The translations under genes were made by a program, and so were the position numbers. Source: a virus. Taken from it: DNA of 26,568 bases. Shown here piece after piece: positions 15,069 through 26,568 of this stretch. The stretch spans positions 1 to 26,568 of IMG/VR virus record IMGVR_UViG_3300050821_003829. One strand, given 5' to 3'. Position 1 is the first letter of the stretch, and each line of letters opens with the position of its first letter. The notes under the pieces are model-generated. The model did not search any database. It saw only the letters and a list, made by a program, of their open reading frames with translations, and had not been told where the DNA came from.

Positions 15069-17294
15069 ATGGATTCACAAAAAAATGTGAGTATGCCGAT
15101 CACCCGATTGAGCTACTCTGACCTCACGCAGTTACTGCGAAACCCGATCATCTTTAAATTAAAAAAGATCCTCGGCATTTACGATACTAAGACCGGTATC
15201 AGTGGCATGATAGGACGTGCCGGTCACGAAGCACTTAAATTTTATTACGGAGGGAATAAGGATCTCCCCTGTCCTGCTGACCCAGTCGAAGCGCGCACCG
15301 CTGCGATTGAGCTCGGTATGGACTACCTCGAAAACACGCCTGATAGCAAAATCAAGTTCGGCAAGACTGGCTCACGCGAATCTATGCTGAAAGGATTCAA
15401 CCAGGCAATGCAATTTTATTTCCAAGAGGAGCCGGTGTACGACAACGTGGTCATTGCGGAAGAAAAACTTGAATCAGAAATCAAGACTGACGATGGTGAC
15501 GTTTTACCACTTCCTTGCGTGGCAATACCGGACATAGTTGATAAACACCCTGATGAAAGTCATGATGTATTCGATGTGAAATTTGTCAAAAGTTTTACTG
15601 CTTATGAAGATGATGAGGGTGAGCCGAACGAAGACTGGGTGAAATTTATCCAGGCACAATTCATCAACCATGTCTTGATCGGAGCTCGTGGCATCCACGC
15701 CAAGCGTTGTATCTTTCGAGAGGTAAAGATCACTGCGAATAAGGACGGTGGTGCTCAAATCAGAGACTATGTCGTCGATCTAAACCATATTCCCTATAAG
15801 ATATTTTTCTACAATCTTTTCAAGGATGTCGTTGCATTTATTTCTAACCCTAACGCAATCTATTTGCCGAACCTATCTGATCCATTCGACGGTCAGCAAG
15901 CCGGGCTCATTTATGCCCAGGGTCTTATCAGTGCCGACATGAGCGATGTCGAAGTGATGCACAAGGTCAAAGACGTGGCATTCACTTCTAAGAAATTCCT
16001 CGCAAGCTCCGCTGACCGAGTGGAGAACCAGTACTTACCGGCTGAGGAGAAGATCAAGATCATGCTCCAAAACTTTGGCATTCCTGTGAAAGTCGAGGAA
16101 ACGAAAGTGGGCGCAAGCGTCACGCAGTACCGTTTCAAAGTGAGTGCCGGAGTGCCGATGACACGCTTTGCAAAATTCAAGCCTGACATTGCGCGAGCAA
16201 TCGAAGCGAAAGGCGAAATCAGAATACTCGCACCGATTCCTGGCACATCATTACTCGGCATCGAAGTTGCAAACGAGGTGCGCGAATCAATCAAGCTATC
16301 AAAGAAATACTTCATTGATGGCACGATGAATATCCCTGTAGGCGTAGACGTGCATGGTAATGCCATGAACCTATTGCTCAACAAGATGCCTCACCTGCTG
16401 ATTGCCGGTGCAACTGGCTCAGGCAAGAGCGTGCTGATCCATTCAATCCTCACTGCGCTCACCAAGCAAATGAAGCCGGACGAATTGGATCTCACACTGA
16501 TTGATCCTAAGCGCGTCGAGCTCACTGCCTTTGCAAAGGTGAAGCACCTGCATGGCAAGAAGATTGTCTTTGAGCATGAGGACGCTATCAAAAACCTATT
16601 GGACTTGGTAGATGAAATGGACGAGCGATATAAAATGCTCGAAAAAACAAAGTGTCGTGATATCGAAGAATACAACCAGCAAGTGCTGCGTGATTATTTC
16701 GGACAGCCAGGAGCTATCCACCACATCATGCCTTTCAAAGTGGTAGTCATCGATGAGATGGCAGACTTCATGCTGAAAGGTCGTCTTGAAGAAAAGAAGA
16801 AAGGCATTGCCTATCCTGCCAAAAGCAAGCGATGGCTCATGAAAGAGCTTGAGACTCGTGCAGGCAAGCATGGTCAGCTGTTCGTAAAAGCGGAGCAGGG
16901 TGAGCGTGCCAACGATGACGGTATGATAAAGATCAGCATCGACGGTCTGCGCTTGCTCGATAAGGATGCGCTCATTGATGTCTTGGAACGCCATGACGCA
17001 ATGAATATCCTCAATCGATCAGATGCCAACACTGAGCATTTGATTGTCAGACTGGCTCAGCTCGGACGCGCTGCAGGCATCCACCTGATTGTGGCTACAC
17101 AGTCCCCTAGAGCTGATATCGTCACTGGATTGATCAAGGCTAACTTCCCTACCAAGATCGCGCTCACAACGTCCTCAGTGACCGAGAGCATGATTATTCT
17201 CGGTGAGGCTGGTGCTGAGAAGCTATCCGGTAAAGGGGACATGATTCTCATGTACCCAGGTGGCAAGGAGCGATTACAAGGGTTTATGATTTAA
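15069..17294 (+). CDS. PD-(D/E)XK nuclease fused to FtsK/SpoIIIE-type DNA translocase
   Basis: The 741-residue protein has two enzymes in one chain. Residues about 8-270 look like a RecB/Cas4-type PD-(D/E)XK nuclease: SYSDL at the start, H53 in GRAGHEALKF, D155 in PDIVD, D169-V-K171 in FDVKF, and a QAQFINHVL block like the Q-motif helix. Residues about 325-420 match the FtsK alpha/beta motor entry (LQNFGIPVKV, AAK-type EAKGEIRILAPIPG, GIEVANE). Residues about 425-741 are the RecA-like motor: Walker A GATGSGKS at 447-454, Walker B VVVIDE with D562 and E563, and the ATQSPR and GDMILMYPGG blocks. There is no membrane domain and no gamma domain. It is probably a DNA pump with end-processing activity that may feed RecT. 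Confidence 0.85.
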   Translation: MDSQKNVSMPITRLSYSDLTQLLRNPIIFKLKKILGIYDTKTGISGMIGRAGHEALKFYYGGNKDLPCPADPVEARTAAIELGMDYLENTPDSKIKFGKTGSRESMLKGFNQAMQFYFQEEPVYDNVVIAEEKLESEIKTDDGDVLPLPCVAIPDIVDKHPDESHDVFDVKFVKSFTAYEDDEGEPNEDWVKFIQAQFINHVLIGARGIHAKRCIFREVKITANKDGGAQIRDYVVDLNHIPYKIFFYNLFKDVVAFISNPNAIYLPNLSDPFDGQQAGLIYAQGLISADMSDVEVMHKVKDVAFTSKKFLASSADRVENQYLPAEEKIKIMLQNFGIPVKVEETKVGASVTQYRFKVSAGVPMTRFAKFKPDIARAIEAKGEIRILAPIPGTSLLGIEVANEVRESIKLSKKYFIDGTMNIPVGVDVHGNAMNLLLNKMPHLLIAGATGSGKSVLIHSILTALTKQMKPDELDLTLIDPKRVELTAFAKVKHLHGKKIVFEHEDAIKNLLDLVDEMDERYKMLEKTKCRDIEEYNQQVLRDYFGQPGAIHHIMPFKVVVIDEMADFMLKGRLEEKKKGIAYPAKSKRWLMKELETRAGKHGQLFVKAEQGERANDDGMIKISIDGLRLLDKDALIDVLERHDAMNILNRSDANTEHLIVRLAQLGRAAGIHLIVATQSPRADIVTGLIKANFPTKIALTTSSVTESMIILGEAGAEKLSGKGDMILMYPGGKERLQGFMI

Positions 17295-17940: not shown

Positions 17941-18097
17941 GATGTGTTACTGTCATACTTGCAAAAGGTATATCCACTCTCTTGGAATAATGAACCATCG
18001 AAAAGCACACCGGGTAAGGCATCAGGACTGCAAAATAACGTTCTCGCATGGAGATACATACTTTTATGAGTTTAGTAAAAAAGAGGAAAATAAATGA
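17915..18097 (+). CDS. C2H2-like zinc-finger protein, 60 residues
   Basis: The N-terminal half has C11, C13 and C16 within CYCHTCKRYIHSLG, followed by NHRKAHR, giving a Cys2-His2 spacing close to a classical finger. The C-terminus is aromatic and charged. It is coupled by ATGA to the Dam-like methyltransferase downstream. A role in targeting or regulating that enzyme is possible from position only. Confidence 0.55.
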   Translation: MPIKIIHNKMCYCHTCKRYIHSLGIMNHRKAHRVRHQDCKITFSHGDTYFYEFSKKEENK

Positions 18098-18510
18098 ACG
18101 ACGTACATTTCAGTAGCAAGACAAACGAGTGGTATACCCCTCAAGCATTCTTCGATAAGTTAAATAAAGAATTTAATTTTGAAATAGATGTTGCTGCCAC
18201 CACTGAGAATGCGAAGTGTAAAAAATTCTATACCGAAGCTGATAATGGGTTGATGCAATCTTGGGACAATATGCGAGTATGGTGCAATCCGCCATACGGT
18301 AGAGGGTTGAAAGAATGGGTCAAAAAAGCAAGCCTAAGTATCGTCGGGGGGGGGGTAATAGTCTTATTGATCCCTGCACGAACTGATACAAGCTACTTCC
18401 ATGATTATATTTATGGAAAAGCTGAAATAAGATTTATCAGAGGTCGTTTAAAGTTTGGTGATAGTAAGAATAGTGCACCGTTCCCATCAATGATAGTGAT
18501 ATTTAGATAG
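18094..18510 (+). CDS. dam: Dam-like phage N6-adenine methyltransferase, in frame (10-G tract)
   Basis: This 138-residue protein belongs to the short phage N6-adenine methyltransferase family, which methylates adenine in DNA, commonly to evade restriction. Visible blocks are the N-terminal EWYTPQAFFDKLNKEFNFEIDVAA type opening, the catalytic NPPY (WCNPPYGRGL) and the LLIPARTDTSYFHDYI region. Length is typical. A run of 10 G at 18346-18355 encodes Gly85-Gly87 in IVGGGVIVLL. With 10 G the frame is intact. Any change not a multiple of 3 would truncate the protein near residue 100 or in a wrong frame. It is coupled by ATGA to the zinc-finger gene upstream. Confidence 0.88.
   Translation: MNDVHFSSKTNEWYTPQAFFDKLNKEFNFEIDVAATTENAKCKKFYTEADNGLMQSWDNMRVWCNPPYGRGLKEWVKKASLSIVGGGVIVLLIPARTDTSYFHDYIYGKAEIRFIRGRLKFGDSKNSAPFPSMIVIFR
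18346..18355 (+). repeat. Poly-G tract (10 G) in the Dam-like gene
   Basis: GTC-G10-TA encodes V-GGG-V in the loop before the LLIPARTDT strand. A homopolymer this long is a known class of slippage site. The matching GTC-G11-TA tract in the MT-A70 gene at 23528 is one base longer. No other G or C run of 8 or more occurs in the window. Confidence 0.85.
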
Positions 18511-18516
18511 TCACCG

Positions 18517-18591
18517 GAGCCACGATGCTGCCAATGGAGAGTGCGTCTCTCGAGGTTCCATTACCTTGTAACGTTGGCAGCATCGTGGCTC
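18517..18591. repeat. Perfect 18-bp inverted repeat after the Dam-like gene
   Basis: GAGCCACGATGCTGCCAA (18517-18534) and TTGGCAGCATCGTGGCTC (18574-18591) are exact reverse complements around a 39-base loop, which itself holds smaller pairings (ATGGA/TCCAT). There is no T run after it, so it is not a normal intrinsic terminator. It could protect mRNA ends, be an RNase III substrate, or be a remnant of a small mobile element. Confidence 0.75.
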
Positions 18592-18600
18592 TGTGGTATC

Positions 18601-18640
18601 ATGAGTATGCGATTGTTTCCGCAATCGTTCGCTCATTTTT
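18601..18640 (+). terminator. Intrinsic terminator
   Basis: ATGAG…GCGATTG and CAATCGT…CTCAT form an interrupted stem with a 6-base loop, directly followed by TTTT. It would end transcripts coming from the methyltransferase operon. Confidence 0.65.
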
Positions 18641-18645
18641 GCTCG

Positions 18646-18677
18646 AAATCCACTGTTATGATGACCAGTGGATTTTT
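18646..18677 (+). terminator. Second intrinsic terminator
   Basis: AAATCCACTG (18646-18655) and CAGTGGATTT (18666-18675) form a perfect 10-bp stem with a 10-base loop, followed by TT. Together with the preceding hairpin it insulates the tmRNA from upstream transcription. Confidence 0.75.
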
Positions 18678-18689
18678 AGCGTATGGGTG

Positions 18690-18695
18690 TATAAT
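18690..18695 (+). promoter_or_regulatory. -10 box of the tmRNA promoter
   Basis: A perfect TATAAT lies 8 bases before the first base of the tmRNA acceptor stem, so transcription would start almost exactly at the mature 5' end. No good -35 hexamer was found at the usual distance; the upstream sequence is part of the terminator stem. Confidence 0.55.
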
Positions 18696-18703
18696 CTAAG
18701 CAA

Positions 18704-19065
18704 GGGATAGATTTAGTTTCGATCCGTTGAACTTTTACAGTATGCGTTGCAGACCACGCCAGTATGTCTTTAAAGCTGGCATCAAACAAATGCAAAAAAT
18801 GCAGTTGTATCGCCGTTCTACACAGTTGCTGATTTTAATCACGCGCTGGTTTAACGACTGTCCGATAGTGAGATACTGCTAGTATCTATCGGGTATGGTT
18901 ACAGCAGTTGGTGGAGGTGTACCCACCCTACCTTTACTGTCAAAGTGAGAGGAGGGAAGCAGTCTGAAAAACCTGCAAAGGCTGCCTGGAGGTTCACTCA
19001 GGATACGCAACGTAGACGTGCTATGAAAGCCATCGGAGACAGGAGTGCAAATCTCCTCTATTCCA
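18704..19065 (+). ncRNA. ssrA: Transfer-messenger RNA (tmRNA)
   Basis: The 362-base RNA rescues stalled ribosomes and adds a degradation tag. The acceptor stem is GGGATAG (18704-18710) with CTATTCC (19058-19064), including the G3-U70 pair that AlaRS recognises, and A73 at 19065; CCA is not encoded. The 5' end GGGATAGATTTAGTTTCGA fits the tmRNA consensus. The T arm is AGGAG-TGCAAAT-CTCCT (19041-19057). The long stem P2 pairs CTTTTACAG (18732-18740) with CTATGAAAG (19021-19029) and GCGTTGC with GCAACGT. An H-type pseudoknot uses AGAC/GTCT and GCCAG/CTGGC (18751-18780), and another uses AACCT/AGGTT and CCTG/CAGG (18970-19002). The tag frame begins at GCA 18792 and encodes AKNAVVSPFYTVADFNHALV, then TAA 18852-18854. 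A resume codon at GCA 18801 is also possible. Confidence 0.9.
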
Positions 19066-19129
19066 CAAGTAAGAAATGATATACAATTAAAGAAAATTCT
19101 TTAAAAAAATAATTGTAAAATCATGTATC

Positions 19130-19498
19130 ATGTCAATCACTATATGTCGTGTCGGATTTTGCAAGGCATGTTTCGACGCAAAACGCCCCTACCGAGGAGC
19201 AGAGTTTGTTGTGTACGGTTCTTTCCGAAAATCATACGACACCCGAAAGGCTATGAGACCAGGAACGATCGGCTATACACCCCACATCTTCGTGAAGCAT
19301 GACCACTCAAAAGGCGATATCTGCACCATATCAAAAGTATGTTGCATGTGTGGCTGTGGCTGCTCGTACCGTTTGTCCGCTGATAACAAAGTGATGCTCC
19401 TGCGTCCTGTCGTTGATAAGTGGGAAATTATTTTTATGCCAATGAGCGATTGGAATGCCCTTGTTGATTTGAAACGTGATAGACAGTATCACCTTTAA
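19130..19498 (+). CDS. Cys-rich hypothetical protein, 122 residues
   Basis: The protein has CRVGFCKAC at the N-terminus and CCMCGCGC near residues 71-78, so it is likely to bind one or two metal ions. The remainder is polar with a C-terminal helix. A weak -10-like TAAAAT lies 8 bases before the ATG, which would fit a leaderless message. No family was recognised. Confidence 0.55.
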   Translation: MSITICRVGFCKACFDAKRPYRGAEFVVYGSFRKSYDTRKAMRPGTIGYTPHIFVKHDHSKGDICTISKVCCMCGCGCSYRLSADNKVMLLRPVVDKWEIIFMPMSDWNALVDLKRDRQYHL

Positions 19499-19508
19499 AC
19501 CCTTTTTT

Positions 19509-19649
19509 ATGAAAACTATTGTCATTCTCGGAGTAATAGTGCTCGCCACTTTTACCATCTTTGTTTGGTTCGTCAGACTTACCAAGCAGCCAAAACAAAA
19601 CCTTAAAGTCGTGCATCGCAAAGAAGATCACGATCCACTGTTCGTGTAG
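19509..19649 (+). CDS. 46-residue membrane peptide
   Basis: ATG 19509 starts a peptide with one N-terminal membrane segment (about residues 3-22) and a basic then acidic tail. It ends at TAG 19647-19649, 6 bases before a terminator. The tidy fit between a gene and a terminator supports it. Confidence 0.5.
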   Translation: MKTIVILGVIVLATFTIFVWFVRLTKQPKQNLKVVHRKEDHDPLFV

Positions 19650-19655
19650 AACATT

Positions 19656-19687
19656 AACCCTCTCTTGCAACGCATCGGAGGGTTTTA
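19656..19687 (+). terminator. Intrinsic terminator
   Basis: AACCCTC (19656-19662) and GAGGGTT (19678-19684) form a 7-bp stem with a 15-base loop followed by TT. It overlaps the -35 of the next promoter. Confidence 0.75.
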
Positions 19688-19694
19688 GTATACT
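19665..19694 (+). promoter_or_regulatory. Promoter with leaderless geometry
   Basis: TTGCAA (19665-19670), an 18-base spacer and TATACT (19689-19694) lie just before ATG 19704. The same TTGCAA-N18 layout is used at 20407. A start 7-10 bases after the -10 would leave almost no 5' leader. Confidence 0.55.
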
Positions 19695-19703
19695 TCCCGG
19701 TAT

Positions 19704-20039
19704 ATGGCAGAAAACGCAAATGACAAGCATGAGGATTCCCTCACCGCGCTGGATCGTGCAGCACTGTTTATCACCAAGATAGTGGGCACCATGTGGTGCG
19801 CGATAGCATTTACCATTCTCGCGCTTATAAGCCTCCCAGAAGCGATTCATGGCGGTGTGGCTACAATGGTCGCGTGGACTGCTCAGACGTTCATACAGCT
19901 CGTCCTGCTCTCAATCATCATGGTTGGGCAGAACCTCGACAGTCGCCATTCAGAGAAACGCGCGGACGCAATGTATGATTTGACTGTAAAAACGGAAGAA
20001 TTGCTGGAAAAGGTAGATCAGATTTTAGAAAGCAAATAA
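19704..20039 (+). CDS. DUF1003-like two-pass membrane protein
   Basis: The 111-residue protein has two membrane helices (about residues 28-47 and 56-76), followed by IIMVGQNLDSRHSEKRADAMYDLTVKTEELLEKVDQIL. That end resembles the SQNRQ…R and coiled-coil end of DUF1003 membrane proteins. The function of that family is not known. In a phage it may act in superinfection exclusion. It lies between a terminator and a short gene-free gap. Confidence 0.6.
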   Translation: MAENANDKHEDSLTALDRAALFITKIVGTMWCAIAFTILALISLPEAIHGGVATMVAWTAQTFIQLVLLSIIMVGQNLDSRHSEKRADAMYDLTVKTEELLEKVDQILESK

Positions 20040-20104
20040 AGGGTTTTTCATATAAAACAAGGATTACTTACCCCGAAAATGTAAGATTTTGTCAACTCAT
20101 GTGT

Positions 20105-20110
20105 CATAAT
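20105..20110 (+). promoter_or_regulatory. Extended -10 box, leaderless geometry
   Basis: TGT-CATAAT reads as an extended -10 and ends 6 bases before ATG 20117. An upstream TTGTCA at 20089 is too close to act as a usual -35. Confidence 0.4.
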
Positions 20111-20116
20111 ATGTAT

Positions 20117-20317
20117 ATGACCAAGAGAATGAATTGGAATATGTTGCATTACAGCCGATGCCCTAAGTGCAGAGGCAAGCTAATCCCTGCGAACGCCGAG
20201 GGAGTGGTTTTGGAATGTCGCAATGCGTATGACGAGAATATCCGTTGTGATTTCGCTATTCGAACCAGCAAACTTGAAAGTATCCGATCGAGCCTGATCT
20301 CGAAAGTGTACGCCTAA
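20117..20317 (+). CDS. Zinc-ribbon protein, 66 residues
   Basis: RCPKCRGKLI and ECRN…RCDFAIRTSKLESI form a topoisomerase-like zinc ribbon with a closing helix, like the repeats in the 24363 gene. I chose ATG 20117 because it follows the extended -10 box at leaderless distance; ATG 20099 adds six residues. It is followed by a terminator, so it is probably a single-gene transcript. Confidence 0.65.
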   Translation: MTKRMNWNMLHYSRCPKCRGKLIPANAEGVVLECRNAYDENIRCDFAIRTSKLESIRSSLISKVYA

Positions 20318-20322
20318 GAATT

Positions 20323-20361
20323 AAAGTGTAGTACGGAATAAATCTGTACTGCACTTTTTTT
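20323..20361 (+). terminator. Strong intrinsic terminator
   Basis: AAAGTGTAGTAC (20323-20334) pairs with GTACTGCACTTT (20346-20357), with one wobble, around an 11-base loop, followed by T residues to 20361. Confidence 0.9.
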
Positions 20362-20377
20362 CATACTCTCCACAGGG

Positions 20378-20436
20378 TTATCCCCAACTGACCTCGTTGC
20401 CATTCCTTGCAACTCGCGCGCCAGTGATAGTATAAT
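20378..20436 (+). promoter_or_regulatory. Promoter of the replication-type gene with inverted operator
   Basis: TTATCCCCA (20378-20386) is followed by TTGCAA (20407-20412), an 18-base spacer and TATAAT (20431-20436). CCTCGTTGCCATTCCTTGCAA is the reverse complement of a relative of the TTGACAACGAATGACAACGG operator, and it contains GTTGC…GCAAC arms. So this promoter carries the operator in the opposite orientation to those at 226, 8545 and 14831. Confidence 0.7.
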
Positions 20437-20483
20437 TACCGCAGTAAAGAACTATTATTATTTTTAGCAAGAGTCATCATCTC

Positions 20484-21095
20484 ATGGAAGAACATTTTGA
20501 AGTGCGAGATCAGCGGAACCAAGACTGGGTATGGACTACCAAGTCGCTTTTGTATCATGCTGATTGCGACGAGAAAATGTACAAGGTGTACTGTGGTCTC
20601 GCAGCGCACGCCAACAATCACACACAGGAATCATTCCCTGCTATCCATACGCTCGTAAAGGAACTGCACATGAGTCGAAGCACCATCATCCGCTCACTGG
20701 CAAAGCTCGAAGCGTTCGAATTTATCGGCGTAGAAAGAAAGACTGGCATTTCCAACGTCTATATCCTCCTTGCAATACCTGACAAATCTCCACCTCGGGG
20801 AAAGGGTCGATCAGGTGCAGGGAAGCCGGAAGAACCGTTTGTGTGGGAAGAATATCTCACCAATATGGCGACCGATAAGATGCGATCAAGAAAAATACTC
20901 GCATTTTACTTCCAAAGAAAAAAGATGAACTTTTCGAGCCACGAGCAAGTCAAGCTCGCCATCGATGAGCAGATCGTCTTTGCCTCAAAGGTTGCAGCAT
21001 TCGAAAAGCCGAAGATCGTATGGGCAATGGACAATCTCGATCGGAGCTTCCCTGCGTGGACATTAAAAACGGTACTCAGAGAGTTAACGCGATGA
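20484..21095 (+). CDS. Winged-helix replication initiator-type protein
   Basis: The N-terminal about 90 residues form a helix-turn-helix_36-type winged helix as in phage replication proteins (lambda O-like or DnaD-like): DEKMYKVYCGLAAHANN, SFPAIHTLVKELHMSRSTIIRSLAKLEAFEFIGVERK. A linker about 40 residues long with Gly/Arg (PPRGKGRSGAGKP) is followed by a helical C-terminal region that may bind a helicase or its loader. No helicase gene is in the window. The leader shares GAGTCATCATC with that of recT. A transcription regulator is an alternative. Confidence 0.65.
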   Translation: MEEHFEVRDQRNQDWVWTTKSLLYHADCDEKMYKVYCGLAAHANNHTQESFPAIHTLVKELHMSRSTIIRSLAKLEAFEFIGVERKTGISNVYILLAIPDKSPPRGKGRSGAGKPEEPFVWEEYLTNMATDKMRSRKILAFYFQRKKMNFSSHEQVKLAIDEQIVFASKVAAFEKPKIVWAMDNLDRSFPAWTLKTVLRELTR

Positions 21096-21331
21096 CGCAA
21101 AAATTTAGGCTGCAGGGCGTGCGAATACGCCATGAGACAAAGCGGACTGGCGCAAAAGTCGATATCATCGAAACAAAGATGGTGGAGAACATCGCACTCT
21201 GCAAGGAATGTAAGCGGAATCCACGAGCCCAAGCATCGAGCCGGTGCAAAGCATGTTCGACAGGGTACAGCGCGAAGCTGCGAACCCTGGGGATATTGCG
21301 ACGAACCGCGCAAAAGCAAGCGCAAAAGTGA
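21092..21331 (+). CDS. Zinc-ribbon protein, 79 residues
   Basis: The basic protein has LCKEC and RCKAC 12 residues apart, a small zinc ribbon, within a Lys/Arg-rich chain. ATG 21092 overlaps the preceding stop by 4 bases, so the two are translationally coupled. This may aid the replication protein, by position only. Confidence 0.55.
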   Translation: MTQKFRLQGVRIRHETKRTGAKVDIIETKMVENIALCKECKRNPRAQASSRCKACSTGYSAKLRTLGILRRTAQKQAQK

Positions 21332-21337
21332 TATACT
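21332..21337 (+). promoter_or_regulatory. Extended -10 box, leaderless geometry
   Basis: TGA-TATACT (the -10 proper at 21332-21337) ends 7 bases before ATG 21345. It is the same TGATATACT used upstream of the terminase genes at 25169. Confidence 0.5.
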
Positions 21338-21344
21338 TAATGCA

Positions 21345-21629
21345 ATGGGATATCAAATTGGACAACCACTTACTCTTATCGCCGGATCATTCGTGATCGG
21401 CACAAGTTATAGGATTCAAACCCTCGGCACCACTGATTTTACGCTCGTTGGCGCATCATCAAATACCGTCGGCATTGACTTCACAGCAACCGGAGTGGGC
21501 GCAGGCAGCGGTACAGTACGACCGACCAAGTCATACGCCCATGTACAAAGCGATCCTACCAACCTCGATACGTTCGAGCCGGGGGATAGTAACAACACGT
21601 CGCTCATTCAAGACGATGTAAAGGATTAA
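21345..21629 (+). CDS. Repeat-motif virion-type protein, 94 residues
   Basis: Residues about 12-60 carry a motif seen in phage structural proteins (FVIGTSYRIQTLGTTDFTLVGAS, then GIDFTATGVGAGSGTV). I chose ATG 21345 because it begins this motif-bearing segment and lies 7 bases after the -10 box. An earlier in-frame start would run over the zinc-ribbon gene. The end is acidic (EPGDSNNTSLIQDDVKD). It could be a decoration protein or a fibre-associated protein. Confidence 0.5.
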   Translation: MGYQIGQPLTLIAGSFVIGTSYRIQTLGTTDFTLVGASSNTVGIDFTATGVGAGSGTVRPTKSYAHVQSDPTNLDTFEPGDSNNTSLIQDDVKD

Positions 21630-21652
21630 CAAAATAATTTAAATTTAACTAT

Positions 21653-22567
21653 ATGGAAGAAAATCTTCAATTTTTGCCTACATTACAAGAAATGTGTACT
21701 CAGGAATATCCAGTGGGCAACTGGGTGATGTTCTACAAGAACACCTGGCTCCGCAAGGTAGTCGCTAACACCATCGACGTGCAAACTGACATGGCATTGA
21801 AAGCGACCGATCCTGAACAGTCTGTGGAATACGGATCTGACGCAATGGGAAATCCTATTGTGATCGCAGTAAAGCACCGCCTCGAGCTCCGCAAGGTAGA
21901 GCTTGGCAAAGCGATCAAGATTCTTGAGGCTATCAAGGCTCTTGATGGCTTGACCGTAGAGGGACTGACCGAAAAGTACTGGTCAGAAGATGCCCTTAAA
22001 ATGGATCCGGCAGTTGCTGCAGAAGCACTGGGTACCAAAGAGCCTGCAACGGTTCAGTACATCGTTATCGCTGATGGCGGTGTCACCCTCAATGGCACAG
22101 AAGATGTGACTCCAAAGGGAACAGCAATCATGCTTGATCCTACCGATCCCGAGACTGCTGCATTATTGGAAGCAGGCACTATCGAGCTTGCGACTGCCGA
22201 TAACACTCAACAGGAACAGGAGCAACAGCAGGAAACTGCGCCTGCTCAGCAACAGTACAAATTCTTAGTTGATTTTGGGACTGAAAAAGCAGGTGACACT
22301 ATCATGCTTCCAACAGCAGGATGGACTCCTGAACAGGTTGCTGAACGAGTAGCTGATGGCTCTATCGCTTTAGTAGTTACTGGTGTAGATACTGCAACTG
22401 CAGATCAGCAACAGCAAGAACAGCAAGATGCTGCTCCAGCTGTTCAAAACTATAATGTCGTAACTGACATCACTGTTGATGGCGTAACACACGCTGCTGG
22501 TACTCAAGTTGAATTGCACGAAGATCAGGTGAAAGAATTACCTGAGGGATCTGTAACGCTCGCATAA
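21653..22567 (+). CDS. Repeat protein with glutamine-rich linkers, 304 residues
   Basis: The N-terminal about 115 residues are a helical domain (ELRKVELGKAIKILEAIKAL and similar). Then come three diverged copies of a small beta module, at about residues 132-182 (VQYIVIADGGVTLNG…IELA), 202-242 (YKFLVDFGTEKAGDTIML…IALVV) and 268-304 (YNVVTDITVDGVTHAAG…SVTLA). The linkers are rich in Gln and Glu (QQEQEQQQETAPAQQQ and DQQQQEQQDAAPA). Such modular chains are typical of display or decoration proteins. Family and role are not recognised. Confidence 0.6.
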   Translation: MEENLQFLPTLQEMCTQEYPVGNWVMFYKNTWLRKVVANTIDVQTDMALKATDPEQSVEYGSDAMGNPIVIAVKHRLELRKVELGKAIKILEAIKALDGLTVEGLTEKYWSEDALKMDPAVAAEALGTKEPATVQYIVIADGGVTLNGTEDVTPKGTAIMLDPTDPETAALLEAGTIELATADNTQQEQEQQQETAPAQQQYKFLVDFGTEKAGDTIMLPTAGWTPEQVAERVADGSIALVVTGVDTATADQQQQEQQDAAPAVQNYNVVTDITVDGVTHAAGTQVELHEDQVKELPEGSVTLA

Positions 22568-22576
22568 TCACATAGT

Positions 22577-22643
22577 GGCATGATGCTTGGGGCTATCCAG
22601 CTTAACTTTCATCGGTGCGATGGGTCGCCCTTTGCATCATGTC
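22577..22643 (+). other. Hairpin-forming intergenic element
   Basis: GGCATGATGC (22577-22586) pairs with GCATCATGTC (22634-22643) over 10 bp with one wobble. Inside, GGGC (22590-22593) pairs with GCCC (22627-22630), and CATC with GATG. There is no T run, so it is not a simple terminator. It may be a leader structure for the gene at 22676. Confidence 0.5.
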
Positions 22644-22675
22644 GCTCAACCATTATTTAACTAATCTTTTCAATC

Positions 22676-22894
22676 ATGAAAAATAAAAAAGTAGCAAAAA
22701 AGAAAGTAAGCAAGCCGACAATGAAGAAATACTTTGGGGTATTCTCAAATCGCGGTATCGCAGTTATCCAGGTGCTCGGTGATCACAAGATGCCGATGAT
22801 ATTCCAAAGCGGTAAGTATGCGAAAGCAGTAGCCGAAACTCGCACCAAGCAGTACAAGCGCAAGCACTTTGCCAAGGAAGTAAAAATCGCCTAG
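22676..22894 (+). CDS. Small basic protein, 72 residues
   Basis: The protein has a highly basic N-terminus (MKNKKVAKKKVSK) and a compact beta-like middle (KYFGVFSNRGIAVIQVLGDHKMPMIFQS), then a basic helix. A nucleic-acid-binding role is likely from charge only. It precedes the next gene by 2 bases. Confidence 0.5.
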   Translation: MKNKKVAKKKVSKPTMKKYFGVFSNRGIAVIQVLGDHKMPMIFQSGKYAKAVAETRTKQYKRKHFAKEVKIA

Positions 22895-22896
22895 TT

Positions 22897-23259
22897 ATGG
22901 AAAACGATCAGGATCCGGTTATGCGAATGTTCCTGATGGCTGGCACCATCAGCGACATACTCAAGGATAAGCTCAAAGGAAACGCCATCGTTGCTGATGA
23001 CGATGCTCGCTGGGCAGTTTCAGAGTGGCTGGCTGGATATCTTGACGCGCAAATCAAGGTTGCGATATCCGAGACAAAAAGGAAAGCAGCGAAGCTGACC
23101 GACGAGGAAAAGGCAGTCATACAAAAAGGCATATTCCTCTATCGATCAGCGATGATGGAGTTCTACAAAGAGAACGCAGCAAAGCTCGGCATTCCTGACA
23201 AGTCAAAGGAAGAAAGCGCAGCCATACATGATCTCGATAAGAAAGTATGGTCATTATGA
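22897..23259 (+). CDS. Hypothetical helical protein, 120 residues
   Basis: The protein is mostly helical and charged (AISETKRKAAKLTDEEKAVI, then FLYRSAMMEFYKENAAKLGI). It is coupled by ATGA to the small membrane protein after it. No family was recognised. Confidence 0.5.
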   Translation: MENDQDPVMRMFLMAGTISDILKDKLKGNAIVADDDARWAVSEWLAGYLDAQIKVAISETKRKAAKLTDEEKAVIQKGIFLYRSAMMEFYKENAAKLGIPDKSKEESAAIHDLDKKVWSL

Positions 23260-23402
23260 TCGTACTGTGCATACTGGCAGAGATCGTGCTCATTGCACTA
23301 AAGATAGCCGGGACAATACACCAGTCCTGGCTATTGGTGCTTTTCCCTGTCTACTTCCCTTTTATTGGAACGGTGTTCATATTAACTTCTCTGAGAAAAT
23401 GA
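23256..23402 (+). CDS. 48-residue membrane protein
   Basis: ATG 23256 overlaps the previous stop and the stop at 23400-23402 overlaps the next ATG (ATGA in both cases). The chain is hydrophobic through about residues 3-44 with a short polar loop (IAGTIHQSW), so it is probably a two-pass membrane protein. No family was recognised. Confidence 0.5.
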   Translation: MIVLCILAEIVLIALKIAGTIHQSWLLVLFPVYFPFIGTVFILTSLRK

Positions 23403-23942
23403 AAAAATACAAAATTATATACGCGGATCCGGCATGGTCATACAAGGACAAGGCACTCGCTGGAAACAGAGGAGCTGGCTGCAAGTACGATGTCATGACG
23501 ATTGCCGACCTCTGTAACTTAAACGTCGGGGGGGGGGGTAGCCGATACTGATTGTGTGCTCTTTATGTGGGTAACAATGCCGAAGCTGAACGAATGCTTT
23601 GAGGTCATAAAAGCCTGGGGATTCGAATACAAAACGGTGGCGTTCACCTGGGTAAAGCTCAACAAGAAATCCGGCACGCCATTCATGGGCATGGGCAGAT
23701 GGACGAGGGCGAATGCCGAAGTCTGCCTGCTTGCCACGCGCGGAAAACCCCACCGCATATCAGCATCGGTGCACTCAGTCGTCATGAGTGCCATAGAACG
23801 CCACAGCAAGAAGCCTGACGAGGTCAGGAAACGCATCGTAGAATTGATGGGCGACATTCCCCGAGTAGAGCTGTTCGCGCGAGAGCGTGCCGATGGCTGG
23901 GACGCATGGGGAAACGAGATAACAAGCGATATCATCTTATGA
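23399..23942 (+). CDS. MT-A70-like adenine methyltransferase, out of frame at an 11-G tract
   Basis: Read with one G fewer, this is a 180-residue MT-A70-type N6-adenine methyltransferase: KIIYADPAW (residues about 4-12, with DPAW in place of the usual DPPW), then CVLFMWVTMPKL, GFEYKTVAFTWVK and WTRANAEVCLLATRG, and an ELFARERADGWDAWGNE end. As given, the N-terminal frame runs through G11 (23528-23538) and stops at TGA 23549-23551 after 50 residues. The second half continues in the +1 frame from the tract to 23942. Ten G (or 13) would restore V-GGG-V-ADTDC. So the gene is OFF in this sequence. It overlaps the previous gene and rusA by ATGA. Confidence 0.85.
23528..23538 (+). repeat. Poly-G tract (11 G) in the MT-A70-like gene
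   Basis: GTC-G11-TA lies in the same codon context as the 10-G tract at 18346. The homologous position in MT-A70 enzymes is a loop between LCNLNV and the ADTDC strand. The tract length decides whether the second half is in frame. Confidence 0.85.
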
Positions 23943-24731: not shown

Positions 24732-24799
24732 CACTCCCCTACCGCAGTATCTACTCATTTTTACCGTAATATCTATACATTCGGTAGGGTAGGGGAGTG
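24732..24799 (+). repeat. 12-bp inverted repeat with inner stem
   Basis: CACTCCCCTACC (24732-24743) is the exact reverse complement of GGTAGGGGAGTG (24788-24799). TACCG (24762-24766) pairs with CGGTA (24782-24786) inside. TATCTA occurs twice in the loop. No T run follows, so it is not a standard terminator. It may be an operator or an RNA processing site between rusA and the terminase operon. Confidence 0.65.
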
Positions 24800-25205: not shown

Positions 25206-26018
25206 ATGTCTCCCATCGTCACAACTAAGCCACCTAATAGGGATTTGAAACACTCAGGCACATTCGATGAGTTCATTCTGTGGTACGCAATGCCAACTGC
25301 TCAAAAGAAAGTAATGCAGATGGAAACCATGGAACAGTTCGCTGATGGTCATGGTATCAACAGGAAGACACTCACCCGGTGGAAAGACAGACCTGAGTTC
25401 AAGCCGAGAGTGCGAGACCTGCGAGACAAATGGGCATTCGAAAAAAGCCAAGAGGTCATTGAAGCAATCTACAAATCTGCAATCAGGGGAAATGATAAGA
25501 GTCAGAAACTATGGATGCAGGTGTTCGAGGGATTCAGCGAACGCACCGAAAACGTTCAGACCACGAGAGTAGAATTAACAGTTAATGACCTACGATTTTT
25601 AATACAAGGCTTCACGCCTGAGGAGCAGGACAAATACTATGGATACATTAGAGAAATCATCGACCGAGCAGCAATCACAGCTTCTGAAATCGAGCGGGGA
25701 GAAATACCTGCAGATCTTCGCTATGTTGAAGCAGGCGCAACCGATAGCGCAGAAGAACCTGAGGGATCTCTATCTGACGAAGCCGATATCGATGCACAAC
25801 ACTTACAAGGCGAACGAGCCGATGAAGTTTCCAGCAGTAATCAAAAGTGCCTATGCAAAAATATGGAGCGGAAAGTATCCGCGTATCATCATCAAAGCTC
25901 CGCGAGGGGGTGGGAAATCGAAACTGCTCGGGACATTCGGCTTCGACGATTGGTATCTCAGACGACGCAAGGTTGTCAACATGGCAGGATCAGCAGTGCA
26001 AGCAACGATAGTCTATAA
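25206..26018 (+). CDS. terS: Terminase small subunit (long frame)
   Basis: The N-terminal part has a helix-turn-helix of the phBC6A51/TerS type (METMEQFADGHGINRKTLTRWKD, about residues 38-60). A helical middle follows (EVIEAIYKSAIRGNDKSQKLWMQVFEGF and LRFLIQGFTPEEQDKYYGYIREII). The TerS binds the packaging site and hands DNA to TerL. The frame runs to 26018 and overlaps terL (ATG 25639) by 380 bases. The segment up to about residue 215 is protein-like. The last 55 residues look less constrained, so the true end or the true TerL start is uncertain. Confidence 0.75.
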   Translation: MSPIVTTKPPNRDLKHSGTFDEFILWYAMPTAQKKVMQMETMEQFADGHGINRKTLTRWKDRPEFKPRVRDLRDKWAFEKSQEVIEAIYKSAIRGNDKSQKLWMQVFEGFSERTENVQTTRVELTVNDLRFLIQGFTPEEQDKYYGYIREIIDRAAITASEIERGEIPADLRYVEAGATDSAEEPEGSLSDEADIDAQHLQGERADEVSSSNQKCLCKNMERKVSAYHHQSSARGWEIETARDIRLRRLVSQTTQGCQHGRISSASNDSL

Positions 26019-26568
26019 CTACTTCAAAGACTATTGCGATATCGATGAGTCAATCCTTGTTGATATCAAGGGAAAGCCTAAGGCTATCATGACGACCGGC
26101 GTTGCTGGCAACTACTTTTCATCAGTGACCGCTTCGAGTAAGCAGGTTCGAGGTAAGCACCCGGATACGTTAATTTCAGACGAGACATGCGAAACCAGCG
26201 ACGAACTGGTTCACTCCGCTTTGCCTATGGTGGACTCATCACAGAAACCCCTAGTAGTCATGGCAAGCACTTTCCATAAGATATTTGGCGTATTCCAGGA
26301 AACATGGGATAACGCGCAACAGCGTGGCTATTTACGCATTCAGTGGGATATCTTTGACGTGACCAAGGAATTTGCATTTGACTACTGGGAGAATGGCAGA
26401 CTGCAGGATGGCACAAAGGTAAGCGATATTGCAGGCATTGAGAAGTTGAAATCATACGCTACTGGTCGCACCGGTGACCCTGAGGGCTGGGTGAACATTG
26501 AGAACATCATCCAGGCATGGCGCGAGAAGCCAACCGAAGACTGGTTTGAGGTCGAGTACATGGGAAGC
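25639..26568 (+). CDS. terL: Terminase large subunit, 5' part (runs off window)
   Basis: This frame starts at ATG 25639 (later ATGs at 25723, 25792 and 25822 are possible) and is open to the window end. It has Walker A as APRGGGKS (K93, S94), the strand before it IIIK, and Walker B PDTLISDET (acidic D and E at the end of the strand), followed by the MVDSSQKPLVVMAST coupling-motif region. It is the ATPase motor of DNA packaging. The C-terminal nuclease domain is beyond the window. The adjoining TerS confirms the call. Confidence 0.85.
   Translation, partial: MDTLEKSSTEQQSQLLKSSGEKYLQIFAMLKQAQPIAQKNLRDLYLTKPISMHNTYKANEPMKFPAVIKSAYAKIWSGKYPRIIIKAPRGGGKSKLLGTFGFDDWYLRRRKVVNMAGSAVQATIVYNYFKDYCDIDESILVDIKGKPKAIMTTGVAGNYFSSVTASSKQVRGKHPDTLISDETCETSDELVHSALPMVDSSQKPLVVMASTFHKIFGVFQETWDNAQQRGYLRIQWDIFDVTKEFAFDYWENGRLQDGTKVSDIAGIEKLKSYATGRTGDPEGWVNIENIIQAWREKPTEDWFEVEYMGS

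Follow-up and report, generated by a model that had tools for sequence, protein, structure and literature searches.

Can a phage switch the methylation of its own DNA by slippage at runs of a single base? The question is raised by a viral stretch of 26,568 nucleotides (IMG/VR record IMGVR_UViG_3300050821_003829, called the window here at its full length), in which two adenine methyltransferase genes, one of the Dam type and one of the MT-A70 family, each contain a long run of G on the + strand: 10 G at 18346-18355 and 11 G at 23528-23538. Our answer is that slipped-strand mispairing quite probably switches such orphan phage methyltransferases ON and OFF, as methylation bet-hedging against restriction. 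The tracts themselves, their effect on the reading frame, their variation in length between near-identical genomes, their concentration in modification genes and their recurrence are established by the comparisons below. As the original prediction had it, no G or C run of at least 8 bases occurs in the window besides these two. Overlapping 8-mer G/C matches number 7 against 0.23 expected, a count reached in 0 of 100 dinucleotide shuffles of the window, and in 2000 synonymous-codon shuffles one run of at least 8 G arose in 83 and two in only 2. GGG accounts for 31 of the 394 Gly codons outside the tract (7.9%), which confirms that it is atypical for this genome. Chance or synonymous codon choice is thus inadequate to explain both runs.

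The Dam-type DNA N6-adenine methyltransferase gene (18094..18510, + strand, 138 aa; PHROG 111) matches PF05869 with an E value of 2.2e-29 (102.8 bits against a cut-off of 28.1, profile positions 8-144 of 169) and displays the family's NPPY motif as CNPPYG. Its 10-G tract encodes Gly-Gly-Gly upstream of a conserved PARTDT motif, at a site where tracts recur in relatives, and the open reading frame (ORF) is intact across it, the state that we term ON, with OFF denoting a gene out of frame across its tract. Directly after this gene, at 18517-18591, lies an 18-nt perfect inverted repeat with a 39-nt spacer and no Rfam match.

The MT-A70 gene is OFF. As predicted, its 11-G tract breaks the gene by one frame, and the second half is intact in the next: the first half (23399..23551, +), with an IIYADPAW motif, meets a stop at 23551, shortly after the tract, which leaves about 50 aa, and the second half (23538..23942, +; PHROG 359) matches PF05063 over 23556-23942 (E 1e-18, 68.3 bits against a cut-off of 23.9). 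The family assignment thus draws on both halves of a frameshifted gene, the first contributing YADPAW as a DPPW-like motif. Inactivation of the enzyme through this DPAW motif was considered and rejected, since DPAW is common in relatives, the YADPAW variant occurring in 19 of 80 motif matches. At the position of the tract the relatives show a V-K/D-D-I loop, so the tract took the place of a loop devoid of Gly. With only the first half of the domain, the truncated product is probably inactive. Tract-bearing MT-A70 stretches are rarer in viral contigs than those of Dam, numbering 10, with 4 ON and 7 OFF when the window is included. One of them, L403 (75% identical in MT-A70, 8 G in frame), was set aside as a sister of the window phage: only that gene is common to both among the genes compared, Dam was not found in the parts examined and the record has one tract. 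The GTC-Gn-TA context encoding V-GGG-V, to which the original prediction had drawn attention, is real in both window genes but is not kept in the nearest tract-bearing relatives, which show AAC-G8-TTG in Dam (L312) and CCAGT-G8-TAGC in MT-A70 (L403). Accordingly, the notion of a copied cassette was abandoned and the shared context is probably coincidental.

The relatives of the Dam gene reveal how sharply such tracts are confined. In the loci of 80 relatives, retrieved by peptide patterns that exclude the tract, runs of at least 8 G occur 21 times in 33 kb of Dam as opposed to 9 times in 1,025 kb of flanks, a density about 70x higher inside the gene. They fall at two positions, one before CNPPYG (window residues 57-61) and the other, the window's own, before PARTDT (residues 84-86). 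Both codons are GGG at 23 of the 73 Gly-Gly pairs in Dam versus 10 of 923 in the other ORFs of the same loci; therefore, Gly content alone fails to explain the tracts.

Frame-blind scans for patterns in which a G run precedes one or the other Dam motif yielded 222 non-redundant Dam segments from viral contigs, for which example calls of frame were checked by translation. Of these, 139 are in frame across the tract and 67 are not, the other 16 being unclear, and the tracts span 8 to 13 G. The ratio of ON to OFF is 66/19 at 8 G, 56/25 at 9 G, 9/17 at 10 G and 4/6 at 11 G. Tracts of 10 or more thus comprise 17 ON and 23 OFF genes, the latter fraction (23/40) being near the 2/3 expected for random length. 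Both frame offsets are found among the OFF genes, and the downstream frame is open to its natural end in 40/40 and 25/27 of them, which is unlike decayed pseudogenes. The same pattern recovers Dam-homologous loci from bacterial genomes, mostly of Clostridia and Bacteroidota and with isolates included, 18 being ON and 23 OFF.

Near-identical genomes also differ in the length of the tract. The MT-A70 genes of L131 and L132 have 10 and 9 G, respectively, this being the sole indel in 16,579 aligned bp with 2 mismatches. Likewise, the tract holds the sole indel between the Dam loci L169 and L203 (8 vs 9 G; 2,263 bp, 0 mismatches), L321 and L378 (8 vs 9 G; 1,893 bp, 0 mismatches) and L189 and L238 (9 vs 10 G; 4,282 bp, 129 mismatches). 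A fifth pair, L026 and L366, has a tract difference of two G together with a difference of one C in another homopolymer and a gap of three bases. Separately, we observed a length-variable homopolymer apparently outside any long gene, a C run of 10, 9 and 9 in the otherwise similar contigs L111-L113.

The tracts extend to other DNA-modification genes. For methyltransferases of the N4/N6 family, at least 120 stretches have a tract before DPPY, with 69 ON and 22 OFF among the matches listed. Pfam searches with 46 tract-bearing non-Dam ORFs from the same loci identified 16 C5 methylases, 3 MT-A70, 2 N4/N6 and 2 Mom proteins. Within tract-bearing loci a tract is carried by 14 of 32 C5, 2 of 4 Mom and 1 of 30 N4/N6 genes, and by 17 of 2173 other ORFs. 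Taken together, non-Dam modification genes differ from the rest with an odds ratio of about 41 (Fisher p 4e-18, uncorrected for relatedness and with query seeds drawn from tract-bearing genes). The Mom-family proteins with tracts of at least 8 G are encoded at L330:7346-8062 and L379:640-1416, Mom being a DNA-modification enzyme of phage Mu. Near Dam we also noted PAPS-reductase-like genes with G tracts (L008:4028-5059, L019:7607-8545, L380:3647-4540), which may act in another DNA modification.

Is the paired arrangement of the window peculiar to it? The terminase large subunit gene at 25639..26568 (+), cut by the window end, served as a lineage marker for finding sister phages with tract-bearing methyltransferases. 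It has 11 relatives at 61-72% identity, 9 of which carry tracts of at least 8 G in methyltransferases. In these relatives a fusion of ParB_N to an N6_N4 methyltransferase shows 8-10 G directly before TDPPY (8-9 G in L466, L468, L469 and L473), and in L466, L468, L471 and L473 a C5 methyltransferase is a second tract-bearing gene, its tract differing in position from one phage to another and being OFF with 12 G in L473. Hence, the predicted pairing of slippable methyltransferases recurs in the window lineage, but there in enzyme families other than those of the window. This recurrence with different families argues for selection on the arrangement rather than on one inherited gene. The contig L471 starts inside its N4/N6 tract (positions 1-10) and the last 8 bases of the record (L475) lie inside the C5 tract; such breaks at both tracts may reflect a within-sample mixture of lengths.

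Named phages and bacterial genomes provide further instances. In Faecalibacterium phage FP_Lagaffe (MG711461, L477) the Dam gene is split at a 7-G run and the annotation covers its last 97 residues only, and in Phage nd12 (OR777946) a 9-G run leaves the gene OFF, with L026 being ON with 8 G in nearly the same context. OFF genes also occur in a Sporofaciens musculi prophage (L441) and in a Clostridiales genome titled complete (L412). Across 299 genomes related to Sporofaciens the tract pattern was present in the centre genome only and a Dam above the cut-off in 5, one of which, G291, has a Dam split with a 9-G run at the split; thus, few bacterial genomes contain a Dam with a tract. Four bacterial genomes each possess two tract-bearing Dams on different contigs, namely QXWR01 (L408/L445), QXXE01 (L416/L435), JAETSR01 (L419/L457) and CANSAE01 (L452/L453), which suggests two prophages per lysogen.

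The mechanism that we propose begins with replication slippage, which would lengthen or shorten a tract by a single G or a few within one phage population and thereby flip the orphan methyltransferase between a full-length (ON) and a truncated (OFF) product, with the methylation presumably lost in the latter. In this record the predicted state would be Dam ON (10 G) and MT-A70 OFF (11 G), and independent slipping of the two tracts could furnish up to four methylation patterns per phage population. The tract-bearing enzymes likely protect phage DNA. Most plausibly, the population would hedge between restriction enzymes, which cleave DNA lacking modification, and defences directed at DNA that carries it. 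ON would be favoured by the former and OFF by modification-dependent defence or by cost. Over and above the window, it appears rather likely that many phage lineages hold distributed poly-G switch genes (Dam, MT-A70, N4/N6, C5 and Mom-family), often at least two per genome and at recurrent hot positions near catalytic motifs, which would pre-generate combinatorial modification states against restriction.

Phase-variable phage methylation, as originally predicted, draws its support from the polymorphism of tract length in relatives, with both frames at the same site, and from the tract-only indels of sisters together with the concentration of tracts in DNA-modification genes. Both window repeats have the form of a contingency locus, being long, located in coding regions and composed of a unit that is not a multiple of three (10 G, 11 G); the companion property, a length that differs between near-identical genomes and alters the frame, is seen in relatives and not in the window itself. 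Several points count against phase variation. Most tracts of 8 G are ON, and their slippage may be too infrequent to count during a single infection. Tracts are absent from many close Dam relatives, e.g. those of the Parabacteroides phages PM682P3 and PM708P4. A single sample, assembled more than once, may have given rise to some of the sister pairs, and their tract difference would then be within-sample or assembly-derived. The length variation is seen between genomes, from which we infer switching within a population. The proposed comparison with sister genomes did show relatives with tracts of varying length in both frames, but no near-identical sister of the window phage was found in the collections searched; its tracts are single observations and, for this reason, their own switching is surmised from relatives.

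Three other explanations need to be weighed. Neutral decay would hold that the methyltransferases are dispensable, that GGG runs arise by drift in their Gly-rich loops and that the frameshifted copies are pseudogenes with no selected switching. The enzymes are indeed accessory genes, the Dam tract sites (columns 59 and 86) are often Gly in relatives, and tracts were repeatedly gained or lost, with at least 16 changes on a weakly resolved Dam tree in which one row labelled tract-bearing (L008) has only 7 G. Yet, the use of GGG at Gly-Gly pairs far exceeds the background, the MT-A70 tract replaces a loop without Gly, tracts are rare in other ORFs and their positions differ among the C5 genes of one lineage. 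Moreover, the OFF genes bear no other disablement, and ON and OFF both occur in identical or near-identical sisters. We therefore regard decay as improbable.

Fainter prospects attach to the two explanations that dispense with a genetic switch. If programmed frameshifting by the ribosome, or slippage of transcription, at the G run yielded the full-length enzyme from out-of-frame genes, the tract would set dosage. Single-base runs can be slippery for both ribosomes and RNA polymerase, and some reduced product from OFF alleles is conceivable. Poly-A/T runs are discussed in a slippage context in PMC3711429. However, programmed sites keep a single conserved offset, whereas here the majority of genes are in frame with both offsets among the remainder, and lengths range over several G and differ between near-identical sisters; recoding is accordingly a very unlikely account. 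Sequencing or assembly error at homopolymers, to which we assign the least probability, might create apparent frameshifts: a G run can be miscalled in a metagenome consensus, both ends of the contig L471 lie inside tracts, and L131 and L132 may come from one sample assembled twice. Error nonetheless cannot account for the tracts themselves or their GGG bias, and OFF alleles, about 1/3 of the total, are found also in bacterial isolate genomes (L412 and L441) and in the phages FP_Lagaffe and nd12 from GenBank; sisters, moreover, differ by few other indels.

As to the remainder of the window, the record is probably a fragment because several terminase relatives measure 37-43 kb. Searches of the window against Rfam and for tRNAs gave no match. 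A single protein encoded at 15069-17294 unites a weak PD-(D/E)XK nuclease match with FtsK alpha and FtsK/SpoIIIE domains in an unusual fusion that has relatives in L467 and L468, and an intergenic 12-nt perfect inverted repeat (CACTCCCCTACC) with a 44-nt spacer lies at 24732-24799.

Methyltransferases turned ON and OFF by repeats are a classic trait of bacteria, and phages, on the opposite side of the restriction arms race, may use the same mutational device to hedge. Phase variation of phage methyltransferases would help explain those annotated as truncated or split, possible methylome differences between near-identical phage genomes, and the crossing of restriction barriers by phages without new genes. 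Cultured examples are at hand in Faecalibacterium phage FP_Lagaffe, Phage nd12 and the prophages of Clostridia isolates.

Phages are known to vary by DNA inversion, as in the tail fibres of Mu (gin) and P1 (cin), or by diversity-generating retroelements. These are likewise phage-encoded, reversible and suited to bet-hedging, but employ a dedicated enzyme and act on tail fibres, in contrast to homopolymer slippage in DNA-modification genes. Anti-restriction modification is exemplified by the Dam of lactococcal 936 phages and the Mom of Mu, which belong to the same enzyme families as those described here and have a presumed protective function; we know of no slippage tracts in either. Bacteroides prophages also swap methyltransferases of different classes, but by gene exchange, and a term search of the paper gave no mention of homopolymer switching (PMC10333322). 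In the open literature searched we found no earlier account of slippage tracts in modification genes that phages encode, and our priority is not certain because most subscription papers and preprints lay outside that search. The poly-G contingency loci of Campylobacter, as portrayed in PMC6321876 and PMC8355987, share hypermutable G/C tracts, length polymorphism and ON/OFF switching, but are bacterial genes, many of them acting on surface structures, and not phage genes. The closest parallel is presented by the phase-variable methyltransferases and phasevarions of bacteria (type III mod, Hpy type II/III), where, according to PMC13076061 and PMC12003011, G runs slip in replication and simple repeats within the gene, including poly-G, turn methyltransferases ON and OFF by frameshift. 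Those are chromosomal restriction-modification genes, whereas here the tracts sit in orphan Dam, MT-A70, N4/N6, C5 and Mom-family genes of phages and prophages, and no restriction partner was recognised among the window proteins scanned. The window system, with its Dam and MT-A70 genes in a phage, would work like a phase-variable methyltransferase outside the bacterial type III mod family.

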